Of a DNA stretch of 64,000 nucleotides, positions 43,868 to 52,246 are shown piece after piece. A program made the position numbers and the translations under genes. Numbering within the stretch: position 1 is the first letter of the stretch; each line of letters starts with the position of its first letter. The notes beneath the pieces were generated by a model, which worked only from the letters and a program-made list of their open reading frames with translations, searched no databases and was not told where the DNA came from. Origin of the DNA: an uncultured Alteromonas sp. (GTDB lineage Bacteria > Pseudomonadota > Gammaproteobacteria > Enterobacterales > Alteromonadaceae); assembly GCF_913058315.1 (NCBI RefSeq), contig NZ_CAJXQY010000007.1, positions 1 to 64,000 on the forward strand, given 5' to 3'.

Positions 43868-43906
43868 GCAGGCCAGTGTTATTTAACTGGCCTGCTGCGA
43901 TTTTTT
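43868..43906 (+). terminator. Rho-independent terminator of the yeaC/DUF349 operon
   Basis: A 10-bp stem, GCAGGCCAGT (43868-43877) with ACTGGCCTGC (43886-43895), an 8-nt loop and TTTTTT at 43901-43906. The T-run overlaps the end of the convergent DUF2797 gene. Confidence 0.88.
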
Positions 43907-44741
43907 ACCCGGCGCTAAACGCCACCTCATAACCTGCGTATTTACGAATATTGATCACCCGATCGCCATCGAGCATCCAGTACTGGCCTTTAATGCCCGT
44001 CAGCACACCACTGAACTCAGGTGTTTTATCCAGATTAATCGATTTAATTTTTACCGGATAATCGTTTACCGGGTAGTTAATCTGATGGCTGACATCCTCT
44101 ACCGGCGTGACAGCCTGAATACCTTTTTCTGCGGCTATCTGCGCTAAATCATCGGCAAGTTTCTCCAGCATCTCATGCTTTAAGGCGATCAGATCCTGCT
44201 GGTCGGGCTGCCCTTTCAGCATTGTCCGCCAGTTGGTTTTGTCACCGATATACTGAGTACACAGCTGTTCTACCTTCCCACTGGTGAGGCGGTCGGGGAC
44301 TCTTAGCATTACGGTAGCCTGGCTGGCGCCCTGATCAATCCAGCGACTGGAAATTCCTTCAGTGACATGACGGGTAATACCCACTTTTAAATTTCCGGTG
44401 TTGGCCAGATACACGAAGTGGTCGGAGAAACAATTTTCTTCACCCCATTCCGGTTCGCGACACGTCCCTTCATGGTAATGACACTTCTCCGGTTTGATAA
44501 TACAGGTATCACACTGGGCCAGTGAGATTACGCAGGGGTAACAATAGCCCTGGTTAAAGCTTTTCTTGGTTTTACGCTGGCAATGGGTGCAATAAATATT
44601 GCCACTGAACGTCAGGCTTACCGGTTTACCGATAAGCTCATTCATTGATACGGTGGCATCGCCCACTGGTAGCTCATACAGAGCTACGTGTTCGGCATCC
44701 GTGGCGACCCGCATCTTTCTTAGTGTTCCTGAATACTGCAT
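43905..44741 (-). CDS. DUF2797 domain protein
   Basis: A 278-residue cytoplasmic protein of the DUF2797 family. It has a cysteine-rich putative metal-binding segment (CTHCQRKTKK, then CYPC, CDTC, CHYHEGTC, about residues 51-95), followed by HFVYLANTGNLKVGITR and RWIDQGASQATVMLRV, resembling GIY-YIG-like family sequence. The function is unknown. It lies downstream of ansA on the same strand with a 15-bp gap, so it is probably co-transcribed. Confidence 0.88.
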   Translation of the reverse strand: MQYSGTLRKMRVATDAEHVALYELPVGDATVSMNELIGKPVSLTFSGNIYCTHCQRKTKKSFNQGYCYPCVISLAQCDTCIIKPEKCHYHEGTCREPEWGEENCFSDHFVYLANTGNLKVGITRHVTEGISSRWIDQGASQATVMLRVPDRLTSGKVEQLCTQYIGDKTNWRTMLKGQPDQQDLIALKHEMLEKLADDLAQIAAEKGIQAVTPVEDVSHQINYPVNDYPVKIKSINLDKTPEFSGVLTGIKGQYWMLDGDRVINIRKYAGYEVAFSAG

Positions 44742-44756
44742 GATTGTGTGTTCCTG

Positions 44757-45764
44757 TTAATTGCTCAGTTCACCCTGCAAACTCTGGCTCAGCTGGTGCT
44801 TAAGCTCATCGAATGACAGTGACTGACTGAGCAGATAATGTAATTTTGCCAGTGTGGCTTCCGGGGTCATGTCAAAGCCGGAGACAACGCCCGCCTGGGA
44901 CAGGCCATGGCCGGTTTTATACCCCCCCATATTCACCCGTCCTTTAAAGCACTGGGTACAATTAACGACGACAATTTGGCGCTCTGCAGCGGTTTCTAAC
45001 TGTGCTAACAGCTGCTTGTTCTGCGGCGCGTTACCCACCCCATAACTGAGTAAAATGAGTGCATTGACCGGCTGTTGCAAAGTATTCTCTATGACCATAG
45101 GGGAAATCCCCGGATACAGACTCACCAGCCCGATGGGCTGGGCGGTTACCTTACTCACTTTCAGTTCAGTGCTACTGGCTCCGGCAATTTTACCGGCTTT
45201 TACACGGATATTGATACCCGCTTCCAGTAAGGGAGGGAAGTTAGGTGAATCAAAGGCGTCGAAGCCATCGGCATCGACCTTACGGCTGCGATTGCCGCGA
45301 AACAGTTTATTGTTAAAAAACAGACTGACTTCGGCAATGGGATAATTGGCAGCGATGTATAAGGCATTGAGTAAATTTACCTGGCCATCGGAACGAAGTT
45401 CTGCCAGCGGGATTTGCGAGCCGGTTACGATCACCGGTTTGCCCAGGCCCTGTAACATAAAACTCAGTGCCGAGGCAGTATAGGCCATGGTGTCGGTGCC
45501 GTGAAGGATGATAAAGCCATCAAATTTATGGTAGTTGGCGGCTATGTCATCGGCGATAAATTGCCAGTCTGCGGGGCTCATATCCGATGAGTCCATGAGT
45601 TCATCATATTCACGCAGAGTGAATTGTGGCATCTCCGGGCGATGAAATTCCGGCATCGAGGCCAGGGTATTCGCCAGGAAGCCGGCGGCTGGCACATAGC
45701 CCTGGGATGAGGGGCGCATTCCGATTGTGCCGCCGGTGTAGGCAATATAAATTTGTTTACGCAT
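44757..45764 (-). CDS. ansA: Type I (cytoplasmic) L-asparaginase
   Basis: Hydrolyses asparagine to aspartate and ammonia. A 335-residue protein without a signal peptide, so AnsA rather than periplasmic AnsB. The two threonine motifs are intact: YIAYTGGTIGM (about 5-15) and ILHGTDTMAYTASAL (about 86-100), plus VIVTGSQIPLAELRSDG. The frame is open eight codons upstream to 45788; ATG 45764 fits the family start MRKQIYIAYTGG. Neither start has a strong ribosome site. It is divergent from the borosin-type locus. Confidence 0.94.
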   Translation of the reverse strand: MRKQIYIAYTGGTIGMRPSSQGYVPAAGFLANTLASMPEFHRPEMPQFTLREYDELMDSSDMSPADWQFIADDIAANYHKFDGFIILHGTDTMAYTASALSFMLQGLGKPVIVTGSQIPLAELRSDGQVNLLNALYIAANYPIAEVSLFFNNKLFRGNRSRKVDADGFDAFDSPNFPPLLEAGINIRVKAGKIAGASSTELKVSKVTAQPIGLVSLYPGISPMVIENTLQQPVNALILLSYGVGNAPQNKQLLAQLETAAERQIVVVNCTQCFKGRVNMGGYKTGHGLSQAGVVSGFDMTPEATLAKLHYLLSQSLSFDELKHQLSQSLQGELSN

Positions 45765-45856
45765 AGTGTTATCACAAACTGCTGACATTTTAGTGATTGT
45801 AACAAGGGAATGGTGCCAGGCTAAATGCTTAATGTGCCTGGTTGTGGATTGTTGAG

Positions 45857-45919: not shown

Positions 45920-46741
45920 ATGAATTATAAAAAGGGAACGCTGGTCTGTGTCGGGCCTGGAATGGTACTTGGTGCACATATAACCGAGCGTTGTAAAAAT
46001 CATATTAAGCAAGCCGATATAGTGTTTACCAGTTGCCATCCGGTGATTGAGAAATGGCTGGCGACGCTCAACTCATGTACCTATTCATTGCAGCATCTTT
46101 ACGCTGACAATAAAGACCGCCGTAATACTTACCAGCAAATGCAGGCTGCTATGCTTGCTGAGGTGCGCAACAATAAAAAAGTGGTGGGCGCGTTTTATGG
46201 CCATCCGGGCGTGTTTGCTCAGGTGCCACATCATTCCATTAAACAAGCAACCGAAGAGGGCTTTGAGGCATGGATGGAGCCGGGAATTTCCGCTGACGCT
46301 TGTTTGTACGCTGATATGGGCATCGACCCTGGGGCCTATGGTTGCCAGCAATTTGAGGCAAGTCAATTTATGTTTTATCAGCGCAAGCTTGACCCCAGTG
46401 CCTATGTTATATTGTGGCAATTGGGTCATGCTGGCGACTTATCGCTAACGCCGCGTCTGACCGGCGCGCCGGAAAGACAGGTTCTGGTGGATATGCTGCT
46501 AGAGTATTATGCGCCTTCACATCAGGTAGCGATATATGAGTCGCCTTTTTTGCCTACTCAACAACCGCGGATCATCTGGCAACGCCTGGATGAATTGCCA
46601 AAGGCGGATATTTCATTAATTTCGACACTGGTGATCCCGCCCGGGCGACGGTTAATACCGAATGATGAAATTGTCATACGATTAAAGTCGATTTATCCGG
46701 CGTCACATGGTAAAAATACAAATAAAGCATTAGGCGAATAA
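45920..46741 (+). CDS. Borosin-type peptide backbone alpha-N-methyltransferase (SonM-like, tetrapyrrole methylase fold)
   Basis: A 273-residue SAM-dependent enzyme of the tetrapyrrole methylase superfamily. Its motifs are those of borosin alpha-N-methyltransferases (SonM of Shewanella, OphMA of fungi), not of cobalamin or siroheme enzymes. It has the SAM loop LVCVGPGMVLG (8-18), Tyr61-x5-Arg67-Arg68-x2-Tyr71 matching the catalytic Tyr/Arg/Tyr set, FYGHPGVFA (92-100), EPGISADACLYADMGIDP (120-137) and FEASQFM (145-151). The usual role is iterative methylation of backbone amides of a separate precursor peptide. No precursor is fused, so it is the split type. ATG 45920 has AGGGA at good spacing. 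The stop is doubled (TAATAA), and the candidate precursor starts 15 nt later. Confidence 0.9.
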   Translation: MNYKKGTLVCVGPGMVLGAHITERCKNHIKQADIVFTSCHPVIEKWLATLNSCTYSLQHLYADNKDRRNTYQQMQAAMLAEVRNNKKVVGAFYGHPGVFAQVPHHSIKQATEEGFEAWMEPGISADACLYADMGIDPGAYGCQQFEASQFMFYQRKLDPSAYVILWQLGHAGDLSLTPRLTGAPERQVLVDMLLEYYAPSHQVAIYESPFLPTQQPRIIWQRLDELPKADISLISTLVIPPGRRLIPNDEIVIRLKSIYPASHGKNTNKALGE

Positions 46742-46756
46742 TAAGGAGCAAAAAAG

Positions 46757-46963
46757 ATGGGAGCAATTTCTTTGTTAGAAAAGTTGGGGGTAGACCCTAG
46801 CTTAGAAATAAATAATTTGTCACCGGCAGAACGGGCCGAACTTGACCAGTTGTTAACCACAATTGCACAGGACAAGAATAACCCTACACTGTCAATTTAT
46901 GATCCTACAGACCCTGATGATGACGATAACGAACAACCCGAAGAACCTGCAAAAGACGCATAA
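46757..46963 (+). CDS. Candidate split-borosin precursor peptide
   Basis: A 68-residue peptide that I do not recognise as a known family. Residues 1-40 form two likely amphipathic helices (ISLLEKLGV, then LSPAERAELDQLLTTIAQ), resembling a leader or borosin-binding domain. Residues 42-50 (NPTLSIYDP) are a short hydrophobic stretch and 51-68 are Pro/Asp/Glu-rich with four consecutive Asp. The ribosome site AAGGAG (46743-46748, 8-nt spacing) is much stronger than that of the methyltransferase, as expected for a stoichiometric substrate. Position directly after a SonM-like gene suggests it is the methylation substrate, with residues 43-50 or the tail as core. This role is inference. Confidence 0.7.
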   Translation: MGAISLLEKLGVDPSLEINNLSPAERAELDQLLTTIAQDKNNPTLSIYDPTDPDDDDNEQPEEPAKDA

Positions 46964-47001: not shown

Positions 47002-48726
47002 ATGCGACGATTTATTTGGTTCGGTTTTTTTCTGTGCCTGAGTTGGTCTGTATTGAGTTCAGAGCATATCGACAAACTGCGGCATATCGATAGTGTTCGT
47101 TTGTCCGATCACCAAATGGCAAAAGCCAAACTGGCGAGCATTCCGATGGCGTCTCTGGATACGGATGAAGTGTTCTACTATCGTTATTTGCTAGGTTTGA
47201 TCCTAACGGTTGACAATGACCTCACCGATATTATTGCCCGTTACGATAGTTTGCTGGAAGAACCTGTGCAGCCGGAACTGCGGCTGCGCATTCTCGGTTC
47301 GCTGATAAATTTGCTCGGCGTAAAGCGCGATTGGAAAAGTGGCTTACAGCGGGTCGAGGAATTATTAGCCCTGTTGCAGGAAGTCCCGGATTCCACCTAT
47401 AAGCCGGATGCTTATCTAAATCTTGCGCTTTTTCATTTGAATATCGGCCAACCTGAAACTGCGTTGCATTTTGCCGAAAAGGCGTTTTCCAGCGAAGCAC
47501 TGGTACCGCGAATTCGCTGCGGGTTGCATCTGGTCATTATTTCTACCAAGTCTAAATTGCAACTGGATGACCTGTCGCTGGCCGAATTTTCCCAGGCCGA
47601 CCAGGTCTGTAACAACGCAAATCAGAATTACACCATTGTTAATATTAATATCTGGAAAGCCAAGTGGTTGTTACAGCAAAATCGGCTTGATGAAGCGCAA
47701 ACAGTATTAACGACCACTCTGATGAAAGCGGAAAAATTCCCTACCGATGGACAACTTATTGAGATTTTCAGTTTGTTTGCTATCGTTTACTGGAAAAATG
47801 AAGCCTTTGACAACGCCCGGCACTACGCCGACAAAGTCATGGAAGTGGAGTTTAAAGAAGACTTTCCGCAGCCCTTAATCGATACCTACGATATAAAGCG
47901 CCAGCTGGCCGAGCGCAATGGTGATTACAAACAGGCATACCAATACCTGACGGCCCGTCAGCAATTAGAACAAAACATGTATGAACGCCAACTGGCGGAC
48001 GAAATTGCCATTCAGCAGGCCCGTTTTGACATAGATGCCAAACAAAGTGAAATTGAGCTGCTGGATAAACAAAATGAACTGCTAAAAGCGGAATCCATGC
48101 TCATTAATGAGCGCCTGGAAAATTCATTATTGGCACTGGCGCTGGTTTCTATCCTGTTATCATCGTTGTTATTCTGGTCGTATCGTAGCCGTAAAGTGCA
48201 ATCAAAGTTAAAGATGTTTGCGCAAACCGACGCGCTGACGCAGATTGCCAATCGTGGCCACTTTACCGATTGTTTAACCGAAAAATTATCTCAGGCGCAG
48301 AAAAACGGCAGCCTGGTTGGCCTGATCCTGCTCGACCTCGATCATTTTAAAAATATTAATGATACCTATGGCCATCAGGTGGGTGACTGGGCACTAATAC
48401 AAACCGCTAAAGCCATAAAAGAAAGTGTTGGCGACGATGCCATTGTCGGCCGTCTGGGCGGAGAAGAATTTGGCGCGGTGATTACCGGCAAACAGGAAGC
48501 CGAAATTATGCACATCGCCGAGCGCTGCCGGATGGCAATTGAACATATCCAGTCAAGCATGAGCGAGTATCAGTTTAAACTGACTGTCAGTGCTGGCGTA
48601 AGTAATTCTTCTCAGGCGGGCTACAAGCTTGAAAACCTCTATGCAGCCGCTGATTTGGCGCTCTATCAGTCCAAACATTATGGTCGCAATCGGGTTTATG
48701 AATACTCTTCGACAATGGTAGGTTAA
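47002..48726 (+). CDS. Membrane-anchored TPR-GGDEF diguanylate cyclase, first of a tandem pair
   Basis: A 574-residue protein with a signal peptide (MRRFIWFGFFLCLSWSVLSS), a periplasmic region of TPR-like helical repeats (about 60-340), a coiled coil, one membrane helix (about 375-393) and a cytoplasmic GGDEF domain. The active-site motif GGEEF is at 486-490, with DLDHFKNINDTYGHQVGD upstream. It should synthesise c-di-GMP in response to a periplasmic signal. No RxxD inhibitory site lies at the usual position before GGEEF, so product inhibition may be absent. It starts 38 nt after the candidate precursor gene with no terminator between, so co-transcription is possible. Confidence 0.88.
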   Translation: MRRFIWFGFFLCLSWSVLSSEHIDKLRHIDSVRLSDHQMAKAKLASIPMASLDTDEVFYYRYLLGLILTVDNDLTDIIARYDSLLEEPVQPELRLRILGSLINLLGVKRDWKSGLQRVEELLALLQEVPDSTYKPDAYLNLALFHLNIGQPETALHFAEKAFSSEALVPRIRCGLHLVIISTKSKLQLDDLSLAEFSQADQVCNNANQNYTIVNINIWKAKWLLQQNRLDEAQTVLTTTLMKAEKFPTDGQLIEIFSLFAIVYWKNEAFDNARHYADKVMEVEFKEDFPQPLIDTYDIKRQLAERNGDYKQAYQYLTARQQLEQNMYERQLADEIAIQQARFDIDAKQSEIELLDKQNELLKAESMLINERLENSLLALALVSILLSSLLFWSYRSRKVQSKLKMFAQTDALTQIANRGHFTDCLTEKLSQAQKNGSLVGLILLDLDHFKNINDTYGHQVGDWALIQTAKAIKESVGDDAIVGRLGGEEFGAVITGKQEAEIMHIAERCRMAIEHIQSSMSEYQFKLTVSAGVSNSSQAGYKLENLYAAADLALYQSKHYGRNRVYEYSSTMVG

Positions 48727-48845: not shown

Positions 48846-50627
48846 TTGGTATTGCGAGTAATTCCCAGACCGTTATGGCAGCAATCCGGTGTCATCGGAT
48901 TGCTGATAATAATGCTTTCGTTGCCGGTAAGCGCAACAGAAGCCCCTGTACAGTTGTTGGCACAAGCCGATACGCTGAGAGTCACCGATCCTGCCAAATC
49001 GCGGCAGTTATTACAGGCATTGAGCAACCAGTCTTTAACGCCGGCTGAGCAGGATTACCGTGACTATCTGCTGGGATTTCACGCTGCAATCGCCAGTGAT
49101 TCTGACCGCGCCGTTAGCATTATAGAGCCTATAAGTCGCAGGCACCCGGCTGATGAACTTGGCTTACGTGCCAGAGCTACGCTACTTAGCATTTACTACG
49201 GTTACCGGGAGTGGTCAGAGGGCTTGCTACTGTCTGCTGAACTAAAGGCACTGTTAGGCCAATTGCCGAGAAACAATACCTGGTACACAGCGAACATTAG
49301 CGTGGTGAATTACTATAGCAACCTGCAAATGTATAACGAGGCGCTTCAGTTACTTGAACGGGTTACCGGCCCGGAACTGGCGAAGGTGAGCGGCGAGATG
49401 CGCTGTCGCTATATTGCACAGGAATTCCGAGCGCAAAAGGGGCTCGATATTAACGCCATTACGCCTCGTTGGCTGGCAACGCTGGAGGCCGCTTGTCTGT
49501 CGTTGCCAAAATCACTTTATACCGTTGAACCCTTTATTAACTGGACGCGTTATTTACTTGACTCCGGGCAATATGAGGCCGTTTTAGCGGCCGTCGGTCG
49601 TTATGAACCAGCCATTAAAGCACTCAACTATTTTTACTATTGGGTGGTCCTTAAAAACATTGAAGCCCAGGCTCTCTATGCATTAGGCCAATACGACGAA
49701 GCCGAAGCGAAAGTAGACCCAATACTGGCTCGACAGGAGATGGCTGACTATTCAGAAGGGCTGGTCACCGCAGCTACTCTGAAAGCAAAAATCCGCAAAC
49801 AACAGAACGATTACCCGCAGGCTTATCACTGGCAGCAGGTCGCCATTGAGAGCGAAAACAGTCAAAACCGCCTCGCCGCGACCCAATACCTGGCAGTGAA
49901 TAATGCTCAGGCGACTTTGCGTCAGGCCGACGAGGAACTTCGGCTGTTATCCAGCCATCAGGCATTGTTGGCTAACCAGGTGGCACGGGCCGAACAAAAC
50001 GTTATCGGCACTTATTTACTTATTGCGCTGGCAGCTTCACTGTTATTTATTACGGTTTTCGGTATTCGTAGGCTGCAAAAACAGCAACAATTGCTGGCCA
50101 GGCTTGCCTCAACAGACTCGCTCACAGGGCTCGATAACCGCCGCGAGTTTATGCAGGTAACACAACAGGCACTGCAGCATAATAGCAGTGCAGAACCGCT
50201 CAGCCTGATCATGTTTGATCTGGATAATCTGAAGTGGGTTAACGACAATTATGGCCATCAGGCGGGTGATTGGGTGTTGATGCAGGTTGGCGAAGTATTA
50301 GCCGCGCATCTGACTGATGCGACGGTGAGTTGTGCACGAGTTGGCGGGGAAGAGTTCGTGTTGTGCTTAAAGGACACTGATGTCAATCAGGCCCTGGCCT
50401 ATTGCCATGACATTCAAAACTGGCTGGGAGATATTGATACCCAAACACAACTCGATGGTTTACAACTGAGTGCCAGCTTTGGGGTGTGTGATACTGATCA
50501 GGTGGGCAAGCAACTGGACTCGCTTATTAGCGGCGCCGACCTTGCTATGTATAAAGCGAAAAAAGCCGGACGCCGTCGGGCAGTTAAGTACTCCATGGAC
50601 AAGAAAGATAAAGAAGAGGCTATTTAA
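48846..50627 (+). CDS. Membrane-anchored TPR-GGDEF diguanylate cyclase, second of a tandem pair
   Basis: A 593-residue protein with the same architecture as its upstream neighbour: signal peptide ([14 protein letters not shown]), a periplasmic TPR-like region (about 30-370), a membrane helix (about 385-405) and a GGDEF domain with GGEEF at 500-504 and [20 protein letters not shown] upstream. The I-site RxxD is also absent. The start is TTG 48846 with AAAGG 8 nt upstream. The sequence has diverged strongly from the first copy, so the tandem duplication is old or the pair was assembled independently. It ends 8 bp inside the convergent lipA gene. Confidence 0.86.
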
Positions 50628-51582
50628 CCTCTTCTCCGGCCGCCTGACGGTCGGCATGATAACTGGAACGTACCATGGGGCCACAGGCGGCATGGGTAAA
50701 GCCTAATGCCTTAGCGGTATCACCAAGTGCATTAAATTCATCCGGGTGCACATAGCGTTTTACCGGGAAGTGGTGACGGCTAGGTTGCAGGTACTGACCC
50801 AGTGTCAACATCTCCACATCGTGCGCACGCAGGTCTTTCAGAACCTCAGCAATCTCTTCCTGACTTTCACCCATGCCCATCATCAAACCAGATTTGGTAG
50901 GGACGTCAGGATGCTGCGCTTTGAATTTTTTGAGTAAGTCGAGTGACCACTGGTAGTTAGCGCCTGGACGACATTCGCGGTACAAACGCGGAATGGTTTC
51001 CAGGTTATGGTTAAATACATCCGGTGGTGTGTCTTTAAAGATGTCCAGTGCGCGGTCCATGCGGCCGCGGAAATCCGGTACCAGTACTTCAATTTTAGTC
51101 GCCGGGCTGTGTTCCCGAATGGCTTTAATGCAGTCAACAAAGTGCTGGGCGCCACCGTCACGCAAATCGTCGCGGTCTACGGAAGTAATTACCACATATT
51201 TGAGCGCCATTTCCTTAATGGTTGTTGCCAGCTTCAGTGGCTCTTCAGCACTTGGTGGTAACGGTTTACCGTGGGCAACATCACAAAACGGGCAACGACG
51301 GGTACAAATATCACCCAAAATCATAAAGGTAGCAGTACCATGATTAAAGCATTCCGCCAGGTTAGGGCAGCTGGCTTCTTCGCATACCGAGTGCAGGTTA
51401 TTTTTGCGCAGGGTTTTCTTGATGTGATCAATGCGATCCGTTGTGCGTGGCAGCTTAATCTTTATCCATTCAGGCTTACGCAGCATTTCCTCTTTTTCAG
51501 TAGGAACGATGGTAACCGGAATGTGCCTGACCTTTTCATCATCGCGGAGTTTAACTCCGGCTTTTGCCTTTACGTTACTCAT
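50620..51582 (-). CDS. lipA: Lipoyl synthase
   Basis: A radical-SAM enzyme that inserts two sulfurs into octanoyl groups on lipoyl domains. A 320-residue protein. The auxiliary cluster motif [12 protein letters not shown] (C-x4-C-x5-C), the radical-SAM motif CTRRCPFC, and the C-terminal RSSYHA with the auxiliary-cluster Ser are all present. It overlaps lipB by 8 bp and lies downstream of it on the same strand, the usual ybeD-lipB-lipA arrangement. Confidence 0.97.
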
Positions 51583-52246
51583 TAAAGCCTTCTATAGTTT
51601 GCAAAGTTGGCAGAGCGAGTTCAGCCTGTAAGTGGCTTAACATTAACTCTGTCGCTTTTTGAATGTTATCCGGCCCGCCTAGACGGGCGCAATCAGTCAT
51701 GGCCATGCCCTGGTAGCCACACGGATTAATCCGCTCAAACGGCGTAAGGTCCATGTTAACGTTGAGTGCCAGACCATGAAAAGAGCAGCCTTTACGGATG
51801 CGTAATCCCAGTGAACAAATTTTCTGACCGTCAACGTAAACGCCGGGCGCATCGGGGCGGGCATTAGCCACAATATTACTGGCTCCCAGGGTGGCTATTA
51901 CCGCATTTTCCATGGCAGTCACCAGTTCGCGGACGCCCATTTTGCGGCGTCGTACGTTCAGCATCAGATATACCACTAGCTGGCCGGGACCGTGATAGGT
52001 AACCTGACCACCGCGGTCAACCTGAACCACCGGAATATCGCCGGGCATGAGGATGTGCTCAGCCTTGCCAGCCTGCCCCTGAGTGAACACCGGCTCGTGC
52101 TCTACCAGCCAAATTTCATCGGCATCATCAGTGGTGCGTTGATCCGTGAAGGTTTGCATGGCCTGCCAGACGGGCTCATAAGCTCGTTTGCCTAAGTGCC
52201 TGACAATCACCGTTTCCCGGGCGACCTTATCAAGGGTGTCTGTCAC
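51575..52246 (-). CDS. lipB: Octanoyltransferase LipB
   Basis: Transfers octanoate from acyl carrier protein to lipoyl domains, supplying LipA. A 223-residue protein with [19 protein letters not shown] (about residues 78-96), [23 protein letters not shown] (catalytic Lys and substrate His region) and [12 protein letters not shown] with the catalytic Cys. It directly follows ybeD without a gap and overlaps lipA. Confidence 0.96.

Follow-up and report, generated by a model that had tools for sequence, protein, structure and literature searches.

What does a methyltransferase gene followed directly by a very short open reading frame (ORF) produce, and what would the product serve for? This question is raised by a locus within a 64,000-nucleotide stretch of DNA from an uncultured Alteromonas sp., called here the window. 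A sequence-only reading of positions 45920-46963 had recognized a two-gene borosin-type unit in which a SonM-like enzyme would methylate a separately encoded peptide. We observed that the unit reaches beyond these positions, which omit an adjoining gene encoding a TPR-GGDEF protein. We lean slightly towards an explanation in which the whole locus couples a split borosin unit to a signal receptor.

The SonM-like methyltransferase

The first gene of the unit (45920-46741, + strand) encodes a protein of 273 aa. A phmmer search of the PDB at E<=0.001 gave 25 sequences, all of them borosin proteins, with SonM as the best match (E 4.8e-68), followed by dbOphM, OphMA (E about 7e-41) and MroMA. Such an E-value places the SonM match above chance, and 123 of the 251 aligned residues are identical between the two proteins. 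According to the accessible text of PMC8429565 (PDB 7LTC), SonM and its precursor SonA constitute a type IV split borosin of Shewanella oneidensis, and the roles of SonM Y58, R67, Y71 and Y93 were measured in that study. These residues align with Y61, R67, Y71 and Y93 of the window enzyme; the motifs quoted in the sequence-only reading are all present as well, together with Tyr61, Arg67, Arg68 and Tyr71. Related enzymes were collected from a first set of 141 loci, made of the window, 60 loci of the genus and 80 loci of the order. Three of these loci (L196, L200 and L202) hold no ORF labelled methyltransferase under the ORF selection used and five hold two, which gives 143 enzymes; the gene labels rest on purpose-built HMMs and score limits of this analysis. 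We aligned 141 of the 143 enzymes (the two longer than 400 aa being left out) with SonM and, once again, the window protein, and the four active-site residues are identical in all 143 rows. The 273 aa contain neither a fused core nor a clasp, and the enzyme is separately encoded. This differs from OphMA and the other fused borosins, whose methyltransferase is homologous but carries the core on the same chain, and resembles SonM/SonA, with separate genes for enzyme and precursor, the same active-site residues and an L-x-I in the core. In the accessible part of PMC8429565, it is the separate genes and not the five-helix binding domain that define a split borosin.

The Pfam family of this protein, TP_methylase, spans the whole superfamily and would also suit a tetrapyrrole or rRNA methylase standing next to an unrelated small ORF. 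A weak match to YabN, the best among the NCBIfam tetrapyrrole models (E 1.7e-9, 37.2 bits for a cut-off of 525), points the same way; the CobA model gives 16.3 bits for a cut-off of 185, and none of these models reaches its curated cut-off. The window's own genome encodes three other TP_methylase proteins, each of which outscores the window enzyme on the general TP_methylase profile, and the window enzyme used as query finds one match in this genome. No cobalamin or siroheme gene was recognized among the neighbours, as the sequence-only reading had stated, the Pfam scan behind this result covering four flanking proteins only. We rejected the tetrapyrrole reading, which is extremely improbable given the SonM match, scores lying far under the NCBIfam cut-offs, the borosin residues kept and the precursor conserved together with the enzyme. 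The borosin assignment proposed earlier thus held when the protein was compared with SonM, OphMA and tetrapyrrole profiles. Judged by its sequence, the 273-aa protein is a split-borosin peptide alpha-N-methyltransferase whose methyl transfer itself is predicted, and we consider this borosin part of the explanation, taken alone, very probably correct.

A short precursor with a putative core

The second ORF (46757-46963, + strand) starts 15 bp after the enzyme ORF and encodes 68 aa; an AAGGAG ribosome site precedes it at 46743-46748 on the same strand, in agreement with the earlier description of a peptide with a ribosome site after the enzyme. Compared with its nearest homologue (L044), it shows 4, 3 and 21 changes at codon positions 1, 2 and 3 (dN 0.082, dS 0.478), and the third position is again dominant in comparisons with three other homologues, for which dS is saturated or undefined. 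An iterated profile search from the peptide yielded 39 homologous ORFs at genus loci, and a detectable precursor lies behind 124 of the 143 enzymes, these precursor counts coming from iterated profiles, which may drift. The bias of the changes toward the third position and the homologues behind related enzymes show the 68-aa ORF to be a genuine gene, and the co-occurrence of peptide and enzyme in other genomes, which the earlier reading had proposed to look for, was thus found. Used as query in the PDB, Pfam and NCBIfam, the precursor gave nothing meaningful; a match to PF13446 (E 0.12) was dismissed as chance, and Foldseek found no match to the model of the precursor.

AlphaFold2 predicts, at moderate confidence (mean pLDDT 69.4), two helices at residues 3-12 and 23-38, the remainder of the peptide being unstructured. 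From this model, the profile links and the alignment of homologues, we delimited a short leader (residues 1-42, 46757-46882), a putative core PTLSIYDPTDP (residues 43-53, 46883-46915) and an acidic tail (residues 54-68, 46916-46960), all on the + strand. Among 20 aligned homologues, L10, P50, P53 and P64 are invariant, and [LM]x[IV]xx stands ahead of the invariant core prolines, giving a putative core motif [LM]x[IV]xxPxxP. Acidic tails are kept in many of the aligned precursors. SonA carries its methylations on L63 and I65, in an L-x-I arrangement (PMC8429565, accessible text), and by analogy Leu45 and Ile47 would be the most likely methylation sites in the putative core.

The SonA binding domain comprises five helices and 53 residues, whereas the window leader has about 40 residues, with two helices modelled at pLDDT about 70, and the proline-rich acidic tail of the window precursor is also unlike SonA. 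Compared directly, the precursor profile matches SonA-like profiles weakly (E 0.003, probability 10), but intermediates from other genera link to both profiles (E 3.7e-7, probability 93, and E 8.1e-11, probability 97). The window precursor therefore looks like a shortened relative of SonA with a reduced borosin binding domain, as judged by profiles and model.

Related loci hold other arrangements of precursors and additional genes. Tandem precursor genes lie 21-511 bp past the enzyme stop at L052 and L053, the first with a truncated core, and a precursor-like ORF after the enzyme of L171 (near 3952, - strand) carries seven ALII-type units in tandem and may represent a multi-core borosin. A GNAT acetyltransferase gene stands beside the enzyme in 44 loci (a one-linkage cluster with three members checked in Pfam), and GNAT is fused to the enzyme at L074 (3398-4813, - strand), a possible second modification. 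A gene for a pepsin-like aspartic protease is found upstream of the enzyme in 31 of the 141 loci (for example L073, 4774-6093, - strand; PF00026 on one scanned member). This protease occurs in 10 of the 59 genus genomes, every copy adjoining a borosin enzyme, and could remove the leader; it has no match in the window's own genome. The precursors of the GNAT and protease relatives (alignment A4, for example) show cores like VVCLMVPAED or KMWCMMFPED, in which Cys and Pro are conserved, and have a long acidic tail. Other peptidase genes upstream of the enzyme encode M17 (6 loci, such as L161 and L146) and M24 proteins (4 loci: L055, L058, L059 and L062). Finally, the enzyme matches at L210 (near 599, + strand) and L240 (near 1405, - strand) lie within ORFs of 638 and 1174 aa, respectively, possibly representing fusions.

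The adjoining TPR-GGDEF gene and its position

A gene for a TPR-GGDEF protein (47002-48726, + strand), our proposed receptor, begins 38 bp past the precursor, and a second one (48846-50627, + strand) follows 119 bp further. In the second protein GGDEF is above the Pfam cut-off and TPR_12 below it, and the tie of this gene to the locus is less certain. Upstream, on the opposite strand, Pfam identified a DUF2797 gene (43905-44741) and an asparaginase gene (44757-45788); downstream, lipA and lipB (50620-51582 and 51575-52246), read by eye, are converging. The window unit itself holds neither a protease nor a transporter gene. The promoter scan returned 5 sites, fewer than the mean of 6.9 obtained with shuffles, and we thus claim no promoter; the only two terminator-like sites listed on the + strand both lie within the methyltransferase gene.

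We then asked how constant this arrangement is. The enzyme is present in 52 of 59 genus genomes and, within the order, in 95 of 394 genomes and 24 of 114 genera. The order search gave 146 matches (summed from the table), 140 of them outside the genus, and the 80 order regions were hand-picked, best-ranked first and then spread across genera, with 9 added later. One TPR-transducer cluster is represented downstream on the same strand at 61/61 genus loci (at L069 the nearest downstream ORF is a GGDEF fragment, and L100 stops at the contig end). In the first set, 128 of the 143 enzymes have a same-strand downstream TPR transducer starting within 1.4 kb, at a median of 278 bp, comprising 83 TPR+GGDEF, 39 TPR+kinase-like and 6 TPR-only proteins. 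Precursor and TPR gene occur together at 120 of 143, separated by a median of 11.5 bp counted to the longest-ORF start. These counts are not independent, because the loci share descent. No near downstream TPR gene accompanies the remaining 15 enzymes (L142, L143, L152, L159, L160, L162, L171, L176, L183, L185, L186, L193, L203, L197 and L210). A divergent TPR-GGDEF gene adjoins at L143, a downstream kinase has no TPR label at L152, a TPR-GGDEF gene lies directly upstream on the same strand at L203, and L197 meets a contig end; the TPR-less enzyme is the first of a tandem pair at L159, L160 and L162, and one of two enzymes at L171.

Position was used as a control. TPR transducers make up 129 of 179 near downstream same-strand ORFs. 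Farther downstream on the same strand they still account for 20 of 101 ORFs, as second copies of the kind present in the window, against 12 of 309 upstream same-strand, 2 of 197 upstream opposite-strand and 0 of 131 downstream opposite-strand ORFs. The window's own genome has 67 GGDEF matches but 3 to this TPR sensor, two of them inside the window. Sensor matches across the genus cluster with the enzyme, 44 of 50 having an enzyme gene within 5 kb, a count made on the 50 of 70 matches with E<=1e-9 and on 43 of 61 enzyme places, and left unchanged when the other 18 places were checked by eye. In a second set of 20 loci, the downstream TPR gene is present at 12 and absent at 8 (L230, L232-L237 and L240; no enzyme ORF is labelled at L230). 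All 8 belong to the 11 loci outside the order, where the TPR gene is found at 3, indicating that it is not a trait of all split borosins. A mirror-tree comparison of 83 loci gave 0.70 for enzyme versus TPR and 0.68 for enzyme versus GGDEF, with nearest neighbours agreeing in 55 of 83; since the two values are alike, the TPR part is not singled out.

The output part of the transducer varies. The GGEEF motif is found in the first transducer ORF of 36 genus loci and is absent from 25; two of the latter, scanned in Pfam, encode HisKA, HATPase and receiver domains after the TPR repeats, and the precursors of ten that were inspected are SonA-like with a longer leader. Locus L178 combines an enzyme 98.8% identical to SonM with two SonA-like precursors (88.7% and 71.0%) and, like the window, a downstream TPR-GGDEF gene. 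Nine further loci of the same genus (L241-L249), probably Shewanella, resemble it.

The window receptor has its GGEEF motif intact, a GGDEF domain at residues 407-564 after the TPR region and, by hydropathy, a single transmembrane (TM) segment at 375-393; its N-terminus resembles a signal peptide by eye and stays under the hydropathy threshold used. Exactly one middle TM segment is predicted in 120 of 122 receptors and a hydrophobic N-terminus in 96 of 122, placing the TPR domain, by prediction, outside the cytoplasm and GGDEF inside. Cys 173 and Cys 203 are invariant in 33/33 aligned receptors, a pattern that would fit an extracytoplasmic disulphide. The receptor model is confident (mean pLDDT 88.9). 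The best 50 entries listed by VIA-align for the full-length model are mostly GGDEF structures. The other entries listed are APPBP2 bound to a degron peptide (Z 24.4) and two peptide-bound Rap proteins, one from a phage (Z 23.5, 4.5 A over 306 residues) and RapF in complex with its inhibitory peptide (Z 22.8, 5.3 A over 316 residues). TPR superhelices are common, and the modelled resemblance to Rap-peptide complexes speaks for a fold rather than for a function or a ligand.

A proposed peptide signal and its alternatives

In the explanation that we favour, the SonM-like enzyme would bind the 68-aa precursor through its short leader and transfer methyl groups from SAM to backbone amides of the core PTLSIYDPTDP. 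A protease encoded elsewhere would free a short peptide, which would reach the periplasm or the medium and bind the TPR superhelix of the adjoining membrane protein; binding would alter the cytoplasmic GGDEF activity and hence c-di-GMP. We propose the released methylated core as the ligand because the receptor model matches the peptide-bound Rap fold and because, in RcbB of Vibrio vulnificus, the TPR domain holds the cyclase in check until a partner lifts the repression (PMC12282931, accessible text). That the peptide is the ligand of the adjoining TPR sensor is, in our estimation, an even call. RcbB shares an N-terminal TPR and a C-terminal GGDEF with the window receptor; the partner of RcbB, RcbA, is another TPR protein, whereas a peptide is proposed here, and the terms methyltransferase and peptide ligand are absent from the main text of PMC12282931 as available. 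The arrangement also recalls the RRNPP systems such as Rap-Phr, defined by a TPR receptor gene that adjoins the gene of a small peptide (PMC10075063, accessible text), and the Rap structures match the TPR model. RRNPP systems, however, are described for Firmicutes, with intracellular receptors, whereas the window receptor is a predicted membrane protein with an outside TPR, as the middle TM segment in the receptors suggests, and a borosin precursor serves as the peptide. Moreover, hydropathy finds no hydrophobic segment in the window precursor, and thus no export signal of the kind carried by RRNPP propeptides.

An ordinary borosin product could instead act on an outside target, the TPR-GGDEF or TPR-kinase protein sensing something else and only controlling production or behaviour. 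Four genus genomes (L250, L251, L252 and L255) speak for this: they keep TPR-GGDEF beside ansA with no enzyme or precursor match at the site (two also beside lipA, and two genomes having no enzyme match anywhere). The sensor is also replaced or absent at the 8 loci of the second set, and the products of type IV borosins are given as unknown in the accessible text of PMC8429565. We nevertheless find it unlikely, as a production regulator would be expected to vary more in its placement than a sensor that trails the precursor so closely across several genomic contexts and with either type of output. The methylated precursor might also stay uncut, the whole small protein being the partner of the TPR protein. 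The window unit without a protease and the retained acidic tails would fit; the pepsin-like protease gene of related loci, and a TPR domain predicted outside the cytoplasm for a precursor without signal peptide, make it quite improbable. Mere hitch-hiking by shared descent, with no functional link, could be suspected from the 24 of 61 genus-set loci that share one site beside ansA/DUF2797, but the enzyme-sensor pair is also found at other sites with other flanks, and the clustering of genus sensor homologues near enzyme genes leaves this a very improbable account.

We therefore retain the coupling of a split borosin unit to a signal receptor as our working explanation. A literature search for borosin and GGDEF found PMC11395268 alone, where a figure legend gives the GGDEF abbreviation and a class with no BBD identified, so that the connection to GGDEF may already have been made in that paper or in those it cites; its main text, as available, contains no c-di-GMP, diguanylate or signal. 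Searching borosin with Alteromonas found no paper, and no receptor proposal for borosin peptides appeared in the literature searched, most subscription journals lying outside its scope. Split borosins are already known, and the window holds one with a shortened precursor and a testable, possibly new function. More tentatively, and with somewhat less than even confidence, the split borosins of Alteromonas-like, Shewanella-like and related bacteria may represent a form of Gram-negative peptide signalling with Rap-like membrane TPR receptors and c-di-GMP or phosphorelay output, the window being a version with a reduced precursor. The much shorter precursor leader would be useful for peptide engineering. 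With a conserved receptor-like gene beside enzyme and precursor, found also at a near-identical copy of the model sonM locus, the role of bacterial borosins becomes open to direct tests. If true, our proposal would provide a natural example of a signal peptide with a methylated backbone, and the receptor, if right, would suggest a purpose for N-methylated peptides.
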